Source of the DNA: Clostridiales bacterium
GTDB lineage: Bacteria > Bacillota > Clostridia > Oscillospirales > Oscillospiraceae
DNA: 34,203 nucleotides
Assembly: GCA_020860385.1 (NCBI GenBank)
Contig: JAJBUK010000079.1
Location: 27,209 to 61,411, forward strand
Reading direction: 5' to 3'
Shown here: positions 206-6,773 of the stretch, piece by piece
Layout of the letters: every line of letters starts with the position of its first letter
Numbering within the stretch: the first letter of the stretch is position 1
Translations under genes and position numbers: made by a program
Notes under the pieces: generated by a model
What the model saw: the letters and a program-made list of their open reading frames with translations, nothing else
Databases searched by the model: none
What the model was told of the DNA's origin: nothing

Positions 206-585
206 GAAATTTTTTCCTGCGATTTAGGGTGCTGCGGCGCGCGGGCCCTCTGAGTGTGATATATGAATCGATGCGCCCCGCAGGTGTAAATTTGCCGGAA
301 AACCTCTGAAAATTTTTGTGATAATTTGCAAATTTGCCCTTCCCTTTTGCGTATTCGTATGATACAATAGCTAATAGGTAAGGTGGCACGGAGTAGCTGC
401 AAAGCACGCGAGGCCGTAAATTATTTGAGGGCTTATTCAATCTAGTAGTTTTTCGGATATTGTTTTGTGCAATCGGCACGGTTCCTGCGCCAGTCAGCGC
501 AGGGAATTACAATGGTAGCCTTTTCGTAGTTGTAGTTATTGCCTGTCCCCTGCCCTCCATTTCAGCAGAAAAAGGAATCCGATGT
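206..585. other. long gene-free leader before cpsC, with hairpins
   Basis: No credible gene lies here; the short minus-strand reading frames lack ribosome sites and family features. A weak plus-strand promoter may be TTGCCC (334-339), 18 bases, TATGAT (358-363). Downstream are a small GCT-GCAA-AGC hairpin (396-405) inside a GGC...GCC frame, and a strong hairpin CCTGCGC / GCGCAGG around 483-502 with loop CAGTCA. Neither hairpin is followed by a T-run, so they do not look like simple terminators. The stretch is probably the 5' untranslated leader of the cpsC-cpsD transcript. I could not match it to a known riboswitch class. Confidence 0.45.
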
Positions 586-1362
586 ATGAACGAGACACAA
601 CACCCCACAAAGCAGCAAGCCCCGCACTCCGATGAGATAGAGATAGATTTGCTGGCCCTGCTCCGCGCCCTGTGGAAACAGGCGTGGCTGATTTTCGCGG
701 TGACGCTGTTCTTCGGCTGCGCGGGGTACATCATCACCAAGGCGGCTGTTACGCCGACCTATCAAACATATTTCAGTATATATGTCAACAACTCCACCCT
801 TACCAATATCAGTTCCATCACCTCCAGCGACATTGCCGCCTCCCAATACCTGGCGGAAACCGCCGCCGATGTCATCGGCAGCAACAGCATTAAGAAGCAG
901 GTCGCGGAGCAGGCTGATGTGACTGAGAGTGAACTTTCGATCTCCACCAGCGTGAATACGGACAGCGGCGTGGTGACGGTCTATATCGTCACCACCGACC
1001 CCAGGACCGCCTACAGCTGCGGGACAGCGCTGATGGACATTGCCGCCACCGAAATCGCCCGCATCGTGGAGGGAAGCTCCGTGCAGGCTATCGACACGCC
1101 GGAAATGCCCACCACCTACTATCAGCCCAACTATCTGAAAAACGTCCTGATTGCCATGCTGCTGGGCGGGGCCCTGGCGTGCGGCCTGGTGATGCTGCGG
1201 GAGCTGATGGACGACAAGGTGAAGGGCCGGGACGATGTGGAGGCCCACTTTGACCTGGTGAATCTGGGCTCCATCCCGGATATTACAGAAGCTGGAACAG
1301 GGAGATATGGATACTATGCTGGATATGGCTACGCTGCAAGAGGAAACAGGAAAACGCGATGA
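586..1362 (+). CDS. CpsC/YveK/CapA-type Wzz-domain membrane modulator of a BY-kinase
   Basis: This is a 258-residue polysaccharide co-polymerase-type protein. It shows the family layout: short cytoplasmic N-terminus, membrane helix at about 34-54, extracytoplasmic Wzz-like region, a proline-containing segment (MPTTYYQPNY, 174-183), a second helix at about 185-207, and a cytoplasmic tail with the family motif DDVEAHFDLVNLGSIPD. In Gram-positive capsule systems this protein activates the partner kinase CpsD. I chose ATG 586 because AAAGGA lies 9 bases before it; a 460 start would add 42 residues without support. The end is odd: about 26 extra residues after the usual stopping point form a tyrosine/glycine-rich tail (YGYYAGYGY, 241-249), encoded where the gene overlaps the start of the kinase gene. 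No glycosyltransferases, flippase or polymerase are nearby. Confidence 0.85.
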   Translation: MNETQHPTKQQAPHSDEIEIDLLALLRALWKQAWLIFAVTLFFGCAGYIITKAAVTPTYQTYFSIYVNNSTLTNISSITSSDIAASQYLAETAADVIGSNSIKKQVAEQADVTESELSISTSVNTDSGVVTVYIVTTDPRTAYSCGTALMDIAATEIARIVEGSSVQAIDTPEMPTTYYQPNYLKNVLIAMLLGGALACGLVMLRELMDDKVKGRDDVEAHFDLVNLGSIPDITEAGTGRYGYYAGYGYAARGNRKTR

Positions 1363-2026
1363 AGCAGCCCGGCAGCACTCCTCTGACTACATTCTGGGTG
1401 CGGATACTCCGTTCGCGGTGAGCGAAGCCTATAAGGCGTTGCGGACAAACGTGATTTTCTCCCTCCCGGGGGACGGGGCGAAGGTCATCGGCATCACCAG
1501 CTCCTCCCGGGGTGAGGGAAAAAGCACCGTCCTCCTGAACCTGGCCGTTTCCTTTGGCCAGGTGGGGAAGCGGGTGCTGCTGATGGACTGCGACCTGCGC
1601 CTGCCCACCGTCGCGGCGAAGCTGGGCATCCAGGGTATGCCCGGCCTCAGCGACCTGCTGGTGGGCAAGCAATGCCCCGTCCGGCACATGACCGACCTGG
1701 GCATCTGCGTCCTCCCTTCCGGCACGCTGCCGCCGGACGCCACGGCGCTGCTGTCCTCCGCCGGGATGGACGGGCTGCTGAAAGAGGCGCGGGAGCAGTT
1801 TGATTATATCTTCCTCGACCTGCCGCCGGTGACCACTGTGGCCGACGCGGCGATTCTGGCGAAAAAAGTGGATGGTTTCCTGCTGGCTATCAGGCACAGA
1901 AGTTCGGGATACAGAGCGATCTCTGAAATGCTGGAGCAGCTGGCGTTGGCTGATGCAAACATTCTGGGTTACATCTATACCAACGCCCCGGTAGGCGGCG
2001 GTAACTATAAACGCTGGCGGCGGTAA
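1316..2026 (+). CDS. CpsD/YwqD-type bacterial tyrosine kinase (BY-kinase), tail lost by frameshift
   Basis: This is a cytoplasmic P-loop tyrosine kinase that normally autophosphorylates a C-terminal tyrosine cluster and works with CpsC. Counted from ATG 1316, it shows Walker A (SSSRGEGKST, 62-71), Walker A' (VLLMDCDLR, 87-95) and Walker B (YIFLDLPP, 164-171). The E-A-Y-KALRTN motif near residue 37 is typical of the family. ATG 1316 has GGAG 11 bases upstream; ATG 1307 is possible but only 2 bases from that site. The protein ends abruptly at GGGNYKRWRR. A 22-bp exact tandem duplication (1994-2037) shifts the frame. With one copy removed, the reading continues YGYGYREHDSDNHSEN to a TGA at 2085-2087, which is a classic BY-kinase tyrosine cluster. 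The catalytic core is intact, so this is a tail-less kinase rather than a dead gene. Confidence 0.88.
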   Translation: MLDMATLQEETGKRDEAARQHSSDYILGADTPFAVSEAYKALRTNVIFSLPGDGAKVIGITSSSRGEGKSTVLLNLAVSFGQVGKRVLLMDCDLRLPTVAAKLGIQGMPGLSDLLVGKQCPVRHMTDLGICVLPSGTLPPDATALLSSAGMDGLLKEAREQFDYIFLDLPPVTTVADAAILAKKVDGFLLAIRHRSSGYRAISEMLEQLALADANILGYIYTNAPVGGGNYKRWRR

Positions 2027-2284: not shown

Positions 2285-4138
2285 ATGAAAGCAAAAGCAT
2301 GGAAACGGGCGCTTAGCATGGTGCTGGCGCTGATGATGGCGTTTTCGCTGGCTGTGTATCCTGCCTATGCGACAAATGCATCAGGTGAATTATTAAGTGA
2401 AGCCACAGCGCTCGAGCCTACTGCCGCAGATGATGTGGACACAGTCGCATCGGAATCCAATTCCAATGCGGGCATTGCAATGATTGGCCTGGATGAGGAC
2501 GATGAAACGTCTGTTACTCTGCCTGAGGCAGTTAATGGCGTTATCACGCTTACTCAGGACTACGCATTGACGGAATCGTATGTTCTTAACAGTGGTGAAG
2601 TAACGATTGATTTAAATGGTTACTCGATTACCCGCGGTGAGGGCAATACAATCTATTATTTGATTGATGTTGCTTCTGGTGCAACCTTAACTGTTAAAGA
2701 TAGTAGCTCTGGAGCAACCGGTACGATTGAAAGTTCCGACATGGGTTGTGGAATCCTGACCAACGGAACTGTAACCATTAACTCCGGCACCGTTAGTGGA
2801 TATTATAGCGGTGTATATGTTTCCGGAACGTCGGCTGCTTTGACCGTAAGCGGAACTGCTGTCGTGAAAAGCACTGTAACGGTAGACATGAACAACTTTG
2901 TTCTCTGGCAAGCCTCTACCTGCGGAATATCTGTTAATGACGGTGCGACCGCTACAATTGATGGCGGCACTGTTGCAGGCGGATATGTGGGAATTACTGT
3001 TTGGGAAGGTAACAGTGCTGACAATCCAAGCACACTGATTGTAAACGGTGGCACAATCAGCGGCGCTACCTTTGGTGTTTCTACTAATGGTAACACTCAC
3101 TATACTGATATCACAGTGAACGGCGGCACTATTTCCGGCATAACCGGTATGTACCTTCCGGCAATGGACAGCACTACAACTATCAATGGTGGTACTATCA
3201 CCGGAACCAGCACCGGCATTGAAATCCGTGCAGGTAGCCTGACCGTGAATGGCGGTACCATTACAAGTACGGCTGAAAGTGGTACCTTTGAAGAGAGCGG
3301 AAACGATAACGGCACAACAACGGTCGGCGCAGCGATTGCCGTTGTTCAGCATACAACCAAGCAGGCCGTCACTGTGACGATTACCGATGGTTCCCTTTCT
3401 GGTTACTATGGTATTTTCGAAGCTGATTTGCAGGGCAACGGAACAGACTACACTCAGTATGTAACAATTTCCGTGTCCGGCGGAACAATTTCTACCACAG
3501 ATACCGAGGACGGCACCGCCATTTATCATAGAACCACTTCCGCCGCTTCGATTCCCCTTATCGGCGGCACTTATAATACGGATCCCTCTGCATATGTTGC
3601 GAAAGGTTATGAAGCGGTCGATAATGGTGATGGTACCTGGACGGTGCAACTAAAGACAGCTACCGCTTCTATCAATATGTCGGTAAACATGACCCTGGCA
3701 AACTCTCTGGCTATGAATTTCTGGATTTCTAAGGATGACGTAGACAGCAGCAGCATTGCAGACTATACCCTGAGTATTGCGAAGGGGGATGGCCAAGCAG
3801 ATGTTTACGAATTTGTTGATGGTAAAATTTATGCAGAAGCGGAAAACTTCTCGACCTTCAATGACTACTATATCGTTCGTTATACCGGTTACTACGCATA
3901 CGAATATGAATCTGACTTGACCGTAACGCTTCTGAAAAATGGCGATGCTGTAACGGTGACAAATAACACCTTCAGTTGGAACGGTACTGAGAATAATATC
4001 TCCATTAGTTCTTTCCTGGCTGCATATAAAACTGCTTACGCTGGAAATAGTACCGAAACTACTATGGCAGACGCTATTGTGAGTTATTGCGAGGCTGCAA
4101 AAGTCTATTACGATGCTACTACATCTAAGTCTAACTGA
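2285..4138 (+). CDS. secreted repeat protein, probable right-handed beta-helix surface protein
   Basis: The 617-residue product starts with a signal peptide (KAWKR, then a hydrophobic stretch, with probable cleavage after AYA near residue 29). From about 75 to 450 it is built of short repeats of the type (V/I)NGGTI(S/T)G, rich in Gly, Thr, Ser and Asn, as in parallel beta-helix adhesins and polysaccharide-binding proteins. A different C-terminal domain (about 465-617) has fewer repeats and ends in a Tyr/Ala helix-like segment (AIVSYCEAAKVYYDA). No LPxTG motif, dockerin or S-layer repeat is evident, so it may be freely secreted or held non-covalently. GGAGG lies 9 bases before ATG. The gene is clearly less GC-rich than its neighbours, which suggests a different history. 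It is followed after 23 bases by the peptide gene, so they are probably co-transcribed. Substrate or partner unknown. Confidence 0.75.
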   Translation: MKAKAWKRALSMVLALMMAFSLAVYPAYATNASGELLSEATALEPTAADDVDTVASESNSNAGIAMIGLDEDDETSVTLPEAVNGVITLTQDYALTESYVLNSGEVTIDLNGYSITRGEGNTIYYLIDVASGATLTVKDSSSGATGTIESSDMGCGILTNGTVTINSGTVSGYYSGVYVSGTSAALTVSGTAVVKSTVTVDMNNFVLWQASTCGISVNDGATATIDGGTVAGGYVGITVWEGNSADNPSTLIVNGGTISGATFGVSTNGNTHYTDITVNGGTISGITGMYLPAMDSTTTINGGTITGTSTGIEIRAGSLTVNGGTITSTAESGTFEESGNDNGTTTVGAAIAVVQHTTKQAVTVTITDGSLSGYYGIFEADLQGNGTDYTQYVTISVSGGTISTTDTEDGTAIYHRTTSAASIPLIGGTYNTDPSAYVAKGYEAVDNGDGTWTVQLKTATASINMSVNMTLANSLAMNFWISKDDVDSSSIADYTLSIAKGDGQADVYEFVDGKIYAEAENFSTFNDYYIVRYTGYYAYEYESDLTVTLLKNGDAVTVTNNTFSWNGTENNISISSFLAAYKTAYAGNSTETTMADAIVSYCEAAKVYYDATTSKSN

Positions 4139-4161: not shown

Positions 4162-4260
4162 ATGATTAAATCATATGAGGAACCTCATGTGGAAGTAATC
4201 AATTTTTCCGTGGATGACGTGATTGCAACAAGCGGCGTCAATACCAAACCGCTTTCCTGA
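4162..4260 (+). CDS. 32-residue peptide, candidate precursor for the HPrK/PqqD/peptidase cassette
   Basis: This small gene encodes MIKSYEEPHVEVINFSVDDV followed by IATSGVNTKPLS. The ribosome site AAGGAG (4146-4151) lies 10 bases upstream of the ATG, a spacing as good as that of the large genes here. The start (K-Y-E-x-P-x-V-E-V-I) and the acidic DDVI-x-TSG segment resemble, from memory, many unnamed 30-50 residue Clostridia peptides; I cannot verify that here. There is no signal peptide or membrane segment. A PqqD-like domain, a kinase-like P-loop protein and an S24/S26 peptidase are encoded just downstream, so I infer that the first ~20 residues act as a recognition leader and the TSGVNTKPLS end as the modified core. 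The last residue is serine, the type of residue phosphorylated by HPrK-like lasso-peptide kinases. The function is a hypothesis. Confidence 0.68.
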   Translation: MIKSYEEPHVEVINFSVDDVIATSGVNTKPLS

Positions 4261-4311
4261 AAAGTCTAACCGATACAGAGTAAGAAAATCAATCTTAACA
4301 AGAAACCACAG

Positions 4312-4339
4312 GGGGCAGGCAGTATCATCTGCCTGCCCC
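4312..4339 (+). terminator. strong hairpin between peptide gene and maturation genes (attenuator-like)
   Basis: GGGGCAGGCA (4312-4321) pairs perfectly with TGCCTGCCCC (4330-4339) around an 8-base loop. Only TT follows, so it is an imperfect intrinsic terminator, partial terminator or RNA-stabilising stem. It lies just before the ribosome site of the HPrK-like gene. This placement fits high expression of a peptide and lower expression of the enzymes. Confidence 0.6.
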
Positions 4340-4363
4340 TTCCCCATGCAGGAGGGCTGCCCC

Positions 4364-5101
4364 TTGAACATTGAACTGGCGGGCTGCGTCATAGGGCTGC
4401 GCCCGCGTTACCCCTATCTGCAAACCTACTGTCTGGACTACCGGACGGACGCCCCGGCGGCGTTCACCGTGACCGCCACCCAGGCGGACATCGACTATGA
4501 GCGGGAGAAGTCCGCCCGGGAGGATGCGCTGGAGGGCATCCCCGTCCGGCGCTTCTCCGACGATTATCTGGAGACCCTGGCGGTCTACCGCAAAATCGCC
4601 GTGGCGCTACTGGATTACGACACCCTGCTGTTCCACGGCTCCGCCGTGGCGGTGGACGGCACGGGCTACCTGTTCACCGCCAGGAGCGGCACCGGCAAGT
4701 CCACCCACGCCCGCCTCTGGCGGGAGATGTTCGGGCCGCGGGCCGTCATGGTGAACGACGATAAGCCGCTGCTGAAGCTCACGCCCGGCGGCGTGACCGT
4801 TTACGGCACCCCCTGGGACGGAAAGCACCGCCTGAGCACGAACATTGCCGTGCCGCTGCGGGCTATCTGCATCCTGAGCCGGGACGCAACAAACCACATC
4901 ACCCCGTTGACAGCGGGGGCGGCGTACCCTATGCTGCTCCAGCAGGCGTACCGTCCCGACGACCCGGCGGCGATGGAGAAGACCCTGACCCTGCTCGACC
5001 GGCTGGCTGGGGGCGTCGCGCTGTACGCCTTGGGCTGCAACATGGAGCGGTCGGCCGCCCTGGTGGCCTGGCAGGGCATGAACGGAGGAAAGATACCATG
5101 A
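4364..5101 (+). CDS. HPr kinase/phosphorylase-like P-loop protein
   Basis: The product is 245 residues, resembling the C-terminal catalytic domain of HPrK and the HPrK-like kinases of peptide and exopolysaccharide clusters. Visible features are HGSAV (91-95), Walker A ARSGTGKST (106-114), the acidic NDDKP segment (131-135, the counterpart of the HPrK GDD region) and YGTPWDGKHR further on. The N-terminal regulatory domain of true HPrK is missing, and no ptsH-like gene is beside it, so HPr is an unlikely substrate. I chose TTG 4364: AGGAGG (4350-4355) lies 8 bases before it, whereas ATG 4346 would put that site inside the gene. The stop overlaps the next ATG as ATGA, implying translational coupling with the PqqD-like gene. 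Likely role: phosphorylation or another ATP-dependent change of the peptide at 4162; inferred only. Confidence 0.82.
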   Translation: MNIELAGCVIGLRPRYPYLQTYCLDYRTDAPAAFTVTATQADIDYEREKSAREDALEGIPVRRFSDDYLETLAVYRKIAVALLDYDTLLFHGSAVAVDGTGYLFTARSGTGKSTHARLWREMFGPRAVMVNDDKPLLKLTPGGVTVYGTPWDGKHRLSTNIAVPLRAICILSRDATNHITPLTAGAAYPMLLQQAYRPDDPAAMEKTLTLLDRLAGGVALYALGCNMERSAALVAWQGMNGGKIP

Positions 5102-5364
5102 AATTAAAAGACGGATTTATGACCCACAGCGCCGGCGGGGAGCATATGGCCATCGCCACCGGCGAAGCGGCCAAAACCTTCCACGGCATGATTCGGAACA
5201 ACGAGACGGCGGACTTCATCTTCCGCCAGCTGCTGACGGACACCACCGAGGGCAGCATCGTAGACGCTATGCTACAGGAATATGACGCGCCAAGAGAGCG
5301 CGTCGCGGCGGATGTGCATCGGGTCGTCACGCAGCTTCGGGAGGCGGGCTTCCTGGATGAGTGA
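5098..5364 (+). CDS. PqqD-like peptide-recognition (RRE-type) protein
   Basis: The 88-residue product has the PqqD family pattern. An N-terminal beta region (MKLKDGFMTHSAGGEHMAIATGEA) is followed by FHGMIRNNETADFIFRQLLTDTTEGSIVDAMLQEYD, then a helix with VHRVVTQLREAGFL. PqqD-like domains bind leader peptides of ribosomally made, modified peptides and hand them to the enzymes; they also occur in Firmicute surface-polysaccharide clusters. The start overlaps the HPrK-like stop by four bases, and its end overlaps the peptidase gene by eight bases, so the three are made together. In lasso-peptide clusters of Firmicutes, an HPrK-like kinase and a PqqD-like B1 protein also occur together, but the B2 protease and the cyclase are absent here. 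Confidence 0.82.
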   Translation: MKLKDGFMTHSAGGEHMAIATGEAAKTFHGMIRNNETADFIFRQLLTDTTEGSIVDAMLQEYDAPRERVAADVHRVVTQLREAGFLDE

Positions 5365-5803
5365 GCTGTCGTCCGCCCTGGCGCGGGAGGTCCGCTCCGG
5401 CAGGCCGGTGCTGGCCCTGACCAGCGGGGACAGTATGCGCCCGCTGCTGGACACCGGCAGGACCCAGGTGCTCGTCGTCCGGGCAGAGGGCGACTTAAAG
5501 GAGAACGACCTGCCCCTGTACCGGCGGCCCACCGGTCAATTCGTGATGCACCGCATCATCCGTGTTGACAAGGAGTTTTACTACACACGGGGCGACAACC
5601 GCTGTGGCCTGGAGCGGGTGCCCAAGGACTGGGTGCTGGGCGTGGTGACGGAAATCACGCGGAACGGGAAAACCTTCCCCGTGTCAAACCGCTGGTATCG
5701 GCGCTATGTGGCGGCCTGGAACCTGATTTACCCGCTCCGCTGGGCCGCCTACAAGCTGCGCGGAGCCGTCAGCAAGCCGCGGCAGCGCAGGAAGGAACCG
5801 TAA
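5357..5803 (+). CDS. S24/S26-family peptidase (signal-peptidase-like)
   Basis: This is a 148-residue serine peptidase. SGDSMRP (23-29) holds the expected catalytic Ser26. HRI (65-67) followed by YYTRGDN (75-81) matches the ER/SipW-type signal peptidases, where histidine replaces the usual lysine, so His65 is the likely general base. There is no obvious N-terminal membrane anchor; only a moderately hydrophobic C-terminal stretch (about 117-137) might bind membrane. It could therefore act on a cytoplasmic or membrane-surface peptide rather than as general leader peptidase. ATG 5357 overlaps the PqqD-like gene and has GGGAGG 12 bases upstream. Context suggests that it cuts the peptide at 4162; cutting the secreted protein at 2285 is an alternative. 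Confidence 0.8.
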   Translation: MSELSSALAREVRSGRPVLALTSGDSMRPLLDTGRTQVLVVRAEGDLKENDLPLYRRPTGQFVMHRIIRVDKEFYYTRGDNRCGLERVPKDWVLGVVTEITRNGKTFPVSNRWYRRYVAAWNLIYPLRWAAYKLRGAVSKPRQRRKEP

Positions 5804-5804
5804 C

Positions 5805-6773
5805 ATGAACCGCTTGAAAACGATACTCTGTATGCTCCTCTCCATCCTCATGGCGACATTCCTGTTCGCCGCATTTTACCGCGACAGCAGGCTGGCCCAG
5901 GCGCAGGCCGACGCGACTGCGGAAGTGCTGGCGGAGGCGCAGCCCTATGAGCAGGAGCTGGAGGCCATTGAAAGCGCGCTGGAGGAGATGGCGGCGGCTG
6001 TCCCCTACGTCAGCGAAACGGCCCGGTTCGTCATCGCGTTTGAGCTGTCAGCCGTTTCTGACCTCTCCTACATCCGGGAGGCGGCGGAGACGTATCAATT
6101 CACCCCTGTACTGGTTTTGGACTGTACAGACGATTTGGAGACGCTGGAGGGCTATCTGGAGGCCGCCGCTGGCACCGGCTGGGAAATCATGCTCTTCGCA
6201 AATTCGTTCTTGGCGGAGGTCAATGAGGATGTCCTCGCCGTGCGAGACGCGCTGGAGCAGCGCGGCATGGAGGACACGGGGGTATTTCTCCTTCGAACCG
6301 ACTATGCTACCACAGAGAACATCCAACTGCTGCTGGAGGATGGGTTTATCGGTTACACTGTGTATAACGAAACGCCCCTGGCGGGGTACGCCAGGGACGA
6401 TGAGGAAAGCGTCATTTATTTCGATTATTCCTATATGCAGACCGTGAATGAGACGATCAACAGCAGGCTGGCCCTGACCTACGCCAACAAGTGCGTCATG
6501 CTGACGCTGTTCGACCTGGAGCGCGTATGGAATGGGCCGATGTCAGAGAGCTATGTTGCCAGCATTCTGGAGCTGGTGCAGACGTACGCCGGATATGACG
6601 ACGCTTGTGTCTCCACCATTGCGGAGGTGGCAGCAGAGCTGAACGAGGCCCAGGAGGCAGAGGCGGAGCGCCAGCAGGCATACGATGAGTATGCCGTGCA
6701 GCAGCAGGAACGAATCGATGAACTGAACGAGCTCATCGACAGTATCTATAGTAAGCTGTCAAACGCATTTTGA
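5805..6773 (+). CDS. membrane-anchored protein with degenerate deacetylase-like barrel and coiled coils
   Basis: The 322-residue product has an N-terminal membrane helix (7-24) that looks like a signal anchor, a coiled-coil stretch (about 28-65), a central alpha/beta domain (about 72-265) and a C-terminal Glu/Gln-rich coiled coil (about 268-318). The central domain (FVIAFELSAVSDLSYIREA, later GWEIMLFANSF and IQLLLEDGFIGYTVYNE) follows the rhythm of NodB-like polysaccharide deacetylase barrels. The metal-binding Asp-Asp and His-x3-His residues are absent, so it is probably not an active deacetylase. It starts one base after the peptidase stop, with AGGAAGGA upstream, and is the last gene before the hairpin at 6779-6811. 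A scaffold or binding role outside the membrane is likely; the fold assignment is tentative. Confidence 0.6.
   Translation: MNRLKTILCMLLSILMATFLFAAFYRDSRLAQAQADATAEVLAEAQPYEQELEAIESALEEMAAAVPYVSETARFVIAFELSAVSDLSYIREAAETYQFTPVLVLDCTDDLETLEGYLEAAAGTGWEIMLFANSFLAEVNEDVLAVRDALEQRGMEDTGVFLLRTDYATTENIQLLLEDGFIGYTVYNETPLAGYARDDEESVIYFDYSYMQTVNETINSRLALTYANKCVMLTLFDLERVWNGPMSESYVASILELVQTYAGYDDACVSTIAEVAAELNEAQEAEAERQQAYDEYAVQQQERIDELNELIDSIYSKLSNAF

Follow-up and report, generated by a model that had tools for sequence, protein, structure and literature searches.

A probable clostridial gene cassette of the linear polyphosphorylated peptide type, with precursor peptides scattered beside genes for secreted proteins

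The window, a 34,203-nt stretch of contig JAJBUK010000079.1, carries a gene cluster that runs past its upstream edge and includes a short peptide gene, a hairpin and three overlapping genes. The features of this cluster, including two just outside the window (given in coordinates of locus L003), are:

L003 4062-5798, ABC exporter (PF00664, PF00005), same contig, just upstream of the window
L003 5802-6995, NTP_transf_5 protein (PF14907), same contig, just upstream of the window
460..1362, + strand, Wzz-type polysaccharide chain-length protein (PF02706, E 9.3e-18), a neighbour that gives a capsule/EPS context; its first in-frame start is possibly too far upstream
1307..2026, + strand, CpsD-type tyrosine autokinase (TIGR01007, E 1.4e-41, above the cut-off), a neighbour
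2285..4138, + strand, 617-aa secreted protein with a signal peptide, directly upstream of the precursor
4162..4260, + strand, precursor peptide of 32 aa, MIKSYEEPHVEVINFSVDDVIATSGVNTKPLS, with AAGGAG upstream
4310..4341, + strand, strong hairpin between the precursor and kinase genes
4364..5101, + strand, HPrK-like kinase (LppK counterpart), start TTG at 4364 with GGAGG before it
5098..5364, + strand, PqqD-like RRE protein (LppB counterpart; PF05402, E 8.3e-16), overlapping the kinase gene by 4 nt
5357..5803, + strand, S26-like putative leader peptidase (LppS counterpart) with Ser26/His65/Asp80, overlapping the PqqD-like gene by 8 nt
5805..6773, + strand, 322-aa protein with an N-terminal hydrophobic segment, the next gene in the run

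Gene order along the contig is thus ABC exporter, NTP_transf_5, tRNA-Val (on the opposite strand), Wzz, CpsD, secreted protein, precursor, HPrK, PqqD, S26 and 322-aa protein. The peptide, the hairpin and the HPrK-like, PqqD-like and S26-like genes are real, as a sequence-only reading of the window had described them, and are conserved in relatives. That reading had also taken them for a minimal set, a claim that fails, as the ABC exporter and NTP_transf_5 genes lie just outside the window and another gene (5805-6773) follows directly. The 322-aa protein belongs to no Pfam family; its homologues lie beside the cassette in four genomes of the same genus, and also in L102 and L115. In L043, L044 and L102 the Wzz and CpsD genes follow the homologue of the 322-aa protein or lie near it. 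The C-terminal part of the 617-aa protein is a domain also found in other secreted proteins that adjoin precursors, and the protein matches the profile of that domain with E 1e-22 in its own genome, being itself a member of the profile. A search of PHROGs gave no match.

A gene set of this kind was named in May 2026, when Linear Polyphosphorylated Peptides (LPP) were described from the lpp cluster of Paenibacillus alginolyticus (Popov et al., Nat Commun; PMC13381572), the sole work returned by a literature search on this gene set; the suggestion that the window holds a class not covered by the named ones is therefore outdated. In Bacillota, the LPP set comprises a precursor, an HprK-like kinase, an RRE, an SpI-like peptidase with a Ser-His-Asp triad, an MsbA-like exporter and an NTP transferase (PMC13381572). 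Gene deletions in B. subtilis revealed that LppK phosphorylates core Ser3 several times and that LppS, whose triad is S29, H68 and D93, removes the leader with the help of LppB, whereas deletion of lppN changed nothing detectable (PMC13381572). The leader is cut after T-1, the phosphate groups are carried by the Ser at core position 3, and the structure of LppB with leader has been solved (9X8Z); LPP clusters are often found in capsule loci, with precursors within the cluster or nearby (PMC13381572). As far as its available main text goes, the article does not use words beginning Clostridi, Ruminococc or Oscillospir (PMC13381572).

The three overlapping genes differ in how clearly they can be placed by family. 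The HPrK-like kinase gives weak sequence matches (Hpr_kinase_C, E 0.025; TIGR00679, E 0.0042), and by sequence its likeness to HPrK structures in the PDB is not significant (E 0.22 and 0.55). Across 14 aligned sequences, however, three blocks are kept: the Walker A G.GK[ST]TH, N[DG]DKP and G.P[WF].GK. It is an HPrK-like P-loop protein in common with HprK-related kinases A and B (TIGR04352, TIGR04355), from which it is separated by scores of 12.1 and 16.1 bits, far below the curated cut-offs of 200. Genes for PqqD-like proteins and nucleotidyltransferases accompany systems with HprK-related kinase A or B, as they do the kinase here. The PqqD-like protein belongs clearly to PF05402; it matches NF033530 below the cut-off (E 7.2e-11), and the RRE profile retrieved from the PDB the lasso RREs TfuB1 (36.4 bits), TbiB1 (36.3) and PbaB1 (29.4), followed by LppB (26.8 bits, E 4.9e-5). 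The S26-like protein (148 aa), which by inspection has no N-terminal anchor, has no Pfam match and a sub-threshold match to TIGR02228 (E 4.8e-7); an alignment of 20 sequences shows no variation at Ser26, His65 and Asp80, the first two of which the sequence-only reading had already pointed out. Its AlphaFold model (pLDDT 91) finds the S. aureus signal peptidase SpsB as top PDB match (E 4.6e-4, TM 0.50 by query length), and also resembles LexA/UmuD-type S24 domains at similar E-values.

In four genomes of the same genus (L037, L042, L043, L044) the S26 domain heads an ORF of 701-732 aa; three of these ORFs, when read through, have an ABC transporter behind the S26 domain, and Pfam confirms one of them (L042). 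This fusion would tie the putative leader cut to export. Peptidase-containing ABC transporters of the C39 type (C39 PCATs) likewise carry a leader peptidase at the N-terminus of an ABC exporter, in their case a C39 cysteine peptidase, whereas the domain here is of the serine S26 type.

As the sequence-only reading had proposed, the short ORF encodes a precursor. Its leader is conserved and its tail variable; in the window it divides into the leader YEEPHVEVINFSVDDVIATS and the tail GVNTKPLS. Iterative searching with a profile built from seven short ORFs, covering 80 named loci, 16 from relatives and the contig stretch of the window, yielded 49 precursors in cis (L039 and L125 being the same locus); the profile matched the window peptide, itself part of the profile, with E 1.2e-11 in its own genome. 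The leader consensus is YxxPxMEVIEFxxEDVITTS. An alignment of 48 precursors has a single invariant column, Asp19 in window numbering, and Ser24 is present in at least 90%; the motif D[VI]xxxS is found in 44 of 49 cis precursors and in 62 of the 64 examined in trans. The aromatic [YFW]xxP motif is carried by 30/49 and 51/64, respectively, and its YxxP form by 22/49 and 48/64, the window having YEEP. Cleavage after ...TS may follow the regular -1/-3 small-residue rule of S26 peptidases; the residues two before the Ser are not uniformly small. Phosphorylation of a C-terminal Ser, proposed from the window peptide, was rejected as a general rule, since a C-terminal Ser occurs in 3/49 cis and 4/64 trans precursors (7/113); what is conserved is the Ser within D[VI]xxxS.

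Both the conservation of the peptide beside homologous triples and its codon-level constraint favour the precursor reading. The window leader differs from two leaders of the same genus with pS 0.87 and 0.81 and pN 0.33 and 0.34; so close to saturation at synonymous sites, this one comparison is a weak test. In one genome with many paralogues, three informative pairs of leaders gave pS 0.51-0.77 and pN 0.05-0.07 (leaders of a fourth pair being identical), and the tails pS 0.47-0.60 and pN 0.06-0.14. Leaders in genome G412 gave pS 0.71 and pN 0.10, with an almost identical tail; in G281 pS/pN was 0.10/0.02 for the leader and 0.29/0.17 for the tail, and in G305 0.17/0.06 for the leader. One locus of G412 (L250) has two tandem precursors with differing leaders and identical 19-residue cores. 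Precursor cores are acidic and vary widely in length. They are more alike within a genome than between genomes (0.39 vs 0.045; 0/300 label shuffles), a difference inflated by recent duplicates: leaders, too, resemble each other more within a genome (0.62 vs 0.38), some pairs are identical, and one row was divided at an incorrect position.

The kinase is found in 28 of the 59 nearest genomes and, at E<=1e-15, in about a third of the genomes sampled from the order (126 of 394). Among 80 named kinase loci, taken from at least 569 relatives and many of them ending at contig ends, 57 encode all three of HPrK, PqqD and S26. An ABC match is present in 42 of these 57, NTP_transf_5 in 32, both in 24 and a precursor in 31; over all 80 loci, NTP_transf_5 is present in 36. 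A precursor with the same leader was found in 37 of the 80 loci and none in the other 43, with 37 of 40 precursors on the strand of the kinase and 30 of 40 within 3 kb upstream of it. The leader profile matches 94 of the 394 genomes at E<=1e-3 (81 at E<=1e-4), and at E<=1e-4 only 2 of 348 genomes drawn over the phylum, both of them members of the order to which the window belongs. In 83 of the 394 genomes the kinase and a precursor are present together (Fisher p 2e-40, not corrected for phylogeny), with the kinase alone in 43 and a precursor alone in 11 of the 94 precursor genomes. Named gut and rumen isolates with a kinase match include Ruminococcus flavefaciens, Faecalibacterium prausnitzii, Coprococcus catus and Kandleria vitulina.

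Most precursors lie away from the kinase. Among the matches listed for the 394 genomes there are 150 precursor places, of which 22 are within 12 kb of a listed kinase place and 128 are more than 12 kb away or on another contig; 18 of the 128 are in genomes with no kinase match, some are duplicates from opposite ends of a single contig (G289 C29), and, the genomes being draft, a precursor on another contig need not be far from the kinase. For at least one of these "distant" places, in L236, PqqD and ABC genes stand only 2.5 kb off. Sixty distant loci, 20 of them chosen (mostly from genomes with several precursors) and 40 drawn at random from the remaining 105, contained the 64 trans precursors. 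Their neighbours were counted gene by gene, each gene once, if at least 200 aa long, no more than 300 bp away and on the same strand; other genes of the same loci served as control, and signal peptides were called by a home-made hydrophobicity rule. Of 38 upstream neighbours that could be assessed, 31 carried a signal peptide, against 33/150 control genes (p 1.6e-11); 9 truncated upstream genes were left out, and 17/64 precursors had no such neighbour. In the random 40 the figures were 18/22 and 27/107 (p 1e-6), with 8 upstream genes truncated and 13/43 precursors without a neighbour. Downstream neighbours carried a signal peptide in 15/28 cases over the 60 loci (p 0.001) and in 7/16 of the random set (p 0.14), which is no enrichment. 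These per-gene counts replaced a first count of a signal-peptide neighbour on either side (43/64; random set 24/43), which had given each peptide two chances. Among the cis precursors, 34/49 have an upstream gene within 300 bp, 19 of these genes having a signal peptide, 10 being truncated and 5 lacking one.

This pairing of scattered precursors with secreted-protein genes is new, and it is statistical in kind. The partners are diverse and include LRR_5/Big_2 proteins of the BspA-type leucine-rich-repeat/Ig-like kind and a subtilase with LRR_5. An earlier candidate, a single C-terminal domain of secreted proteins as the key to the pairing, was weakened by this diversity and by the counts. Of 92 listed places of that domain, only 24 are followed by a listed precursor at 300 bp or less, and only 24/150 precursors adjoin one; its AlphaFold model is poor (pLDDT 66), and Foldseek returned no significant match for it, the best being Ig-like at E 0.017. 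At L229 (4369-4509) a precursor stands in frame at the end of a 345-aa frame with a secreted-like start, either a fusion or a chance frame.

Set against LPP, the cassette has the same six gene kinds, the five enzyme and transport genes lying on one contig in the window's genome and occurring together in 24/80 named loci; both systems have a conserved YxxP leader with a variable C-terminus, a Ser-His-Asp peptidase triad (His-Asp spacing 15 here, 25 in LppS) and a capsule neighbourhood, here Wzz and CpsD next door (PMC13381572). They differ in the leader, which in LPP reads YxxPxVLxHQxIxFETxxS (PMC13381572), and the LPP cleavage-phosphorylation motif, Px9Fx[T/A] / FETxxS, has no match among the 49 cis and 64 trans precursors (0/113), so that the LPP cut site is not transferable to them. 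Here, too, most precursors are remote from the kinase locus and many stand behind genes for secreted proteins, fusions of S26 with the ABC exporter occur, and the RRE is no closer to LppB than to lasso RREs. Strict membership of LPP is not claimed, since the precursor motif differs and the RRE is only a possible member of the LPP clade.

With these likenesses the locus is very probably a clostridial RiPP pathway of the LPP type, cut by the window edge, in which genes, motifs, conservation, co-occurrence and codon constraint are observed, and leader binding, phosphorylation, cleavage and export are predicted by analogy with LPP. It is highly improbable that, instead of a peptide precursor, the short ORF serves the operon in regulation or coupling, by attenuation through the hairpin. 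Its position only 24 nt behind the upstream gene would suit such a role, as would the strong hairpin between it and the kinase gene (-32.3 kcal/mol, z -3.3), which lacks a T-run on the + strand; in the 33 cis loci that were folded, the window included, the precursor is followed by a hairpin of between -14.7 and -39.0 kcal/mol, with a shuffle control for the window only. Against this, most related ORFs (the 128/150 distant places) keep the leader away from any kinase gene, and pS is well above pN in both leader and tail of one paralogue group. Also highly improbable is a lasso-peptide pathway with cyclase and B2 protease acting from elsewhere in the genome. In its favour are a leader motif and RRE that resemble lasso leaders and B1 (the NF033530 match) and the presence in the genome of one partial Transglut_core3 match (E 8.6e-6, 302-aa frame) and a strong Asn_synthase match. 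These two matches lie on different contigs (C8, C134), adjoining neither each other nor the locus; an S26 peptidase takes the place of B2, the cores are acidic and of widely varied length, and neither a B2 protease nor an asparagine-synthetase-like cyclase is among the ORFs of the window or L003.

Paeninodin-type lasso peptides are among the closest known systems, and pseudomycoidin PsmK and PsmN are a paeninodin-type HPrK kinase and nucleotidyltransferase. The paeninodin type shares with the cassette an HPrK-like kinase, an NTP transferase, a discrete RRE and a YxxP/WxxP leader (PMC13381572), whereas the locus here has no B2 protease or cyclase, the peptide is expected to be linear, and the phosphosite would not be C-terminal. 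Less easily dismissed, if still unlikely, is the reading that these parts work mainly by a chemistry other than phosphorylation, such as glycosylation or nucleotidylation by NTP_transf_5 or another P-loop activity. The weak likeness of the kinase to HPrK, the frequency of NTP_transf_5 (36/80 loci) and a PF00483 nucleotidyltransferase in the cluster of the Bacteroidales contig L112 would fit this, while the kept Walker A, ND/GDKP and GxP[WF]xGK blocks, an LPP counterpart that is a proven kinase, and the deletion of lppN without detectable change (PMC13381572) all argue for phosphorylation.

On the LPP-type reading, the PqqD-like RRE would grip the YxxP part of the leader, and the HPrK-like kinase would phosphorylate a Ser at the border of leader and core, most likely that of D[VI]xxxS, which is Ser24 of the window peptide. 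Near this Ser the leader would be cut by the soluble peptidase of S26 type with its Ser-His-Asp triad, the ABC exporter would carry the product out, and the NTP_transf_5 protein may further decorate the phosphate. The predicted product, an acidic phosphopeptide, would be short and linear and would act on the cell surface or beyond it. The sequence-only reading is in this way partly supported: its precursor, its PqqD-like protein as an RRE-type partner and its kinase and peptidase as a modification and cleavage set agree with roles shown experimentally for the LPP counterparts (PMC13381572), and its minimal set and unnamed class fall away, as does its C-terminal phosphosite as a general rule. 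LPP were described, from Paenibacillus, only in 2026; if the chemistry is the same, it would be present in about a third of the sampled genomes of this order.

A wider proposal, which we put forward tentatively and rate as somewhat less probable than its negation, is a surface-phosphopeptide system with dispersed parts. In each genome a single cassette for maturation and export would serve many chromosome-scattered precursors, each right behind (or before) the gene for a large secreted protein, and each product, phosphorylated and perhaps sugar-bearing, with a genome-specific shared core, may be a surface partner or tag of that protein. The fusion of leader peptidase and exporter in one genus would be a serine-protease counterpart of the C39 peptidase-transporters. 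If true, the pairing of precursors with secreted proteins would be the first handle on what such phosphopeptides do.

Two further observations concern the reach of the gene set. Cassette genes occur in contigs binned outside Bacillota, in Bacteroidales-type MAGs (L111, L112, L124) and in Atopobiaceae (L118), where mis-binning is possible; L112 is part of a 209-kb contig, and the PF00483 protein inside its cluster is presumably a mannose-1-phosphate guanylyltransferase. Radical SAM/SPASM proteins are encoded in 5/80 named loci, and in L084, L090, L120, L127 and L132 such maturase genes share the locus with precursors of the same leader family, some of which have Cys-rich tails.
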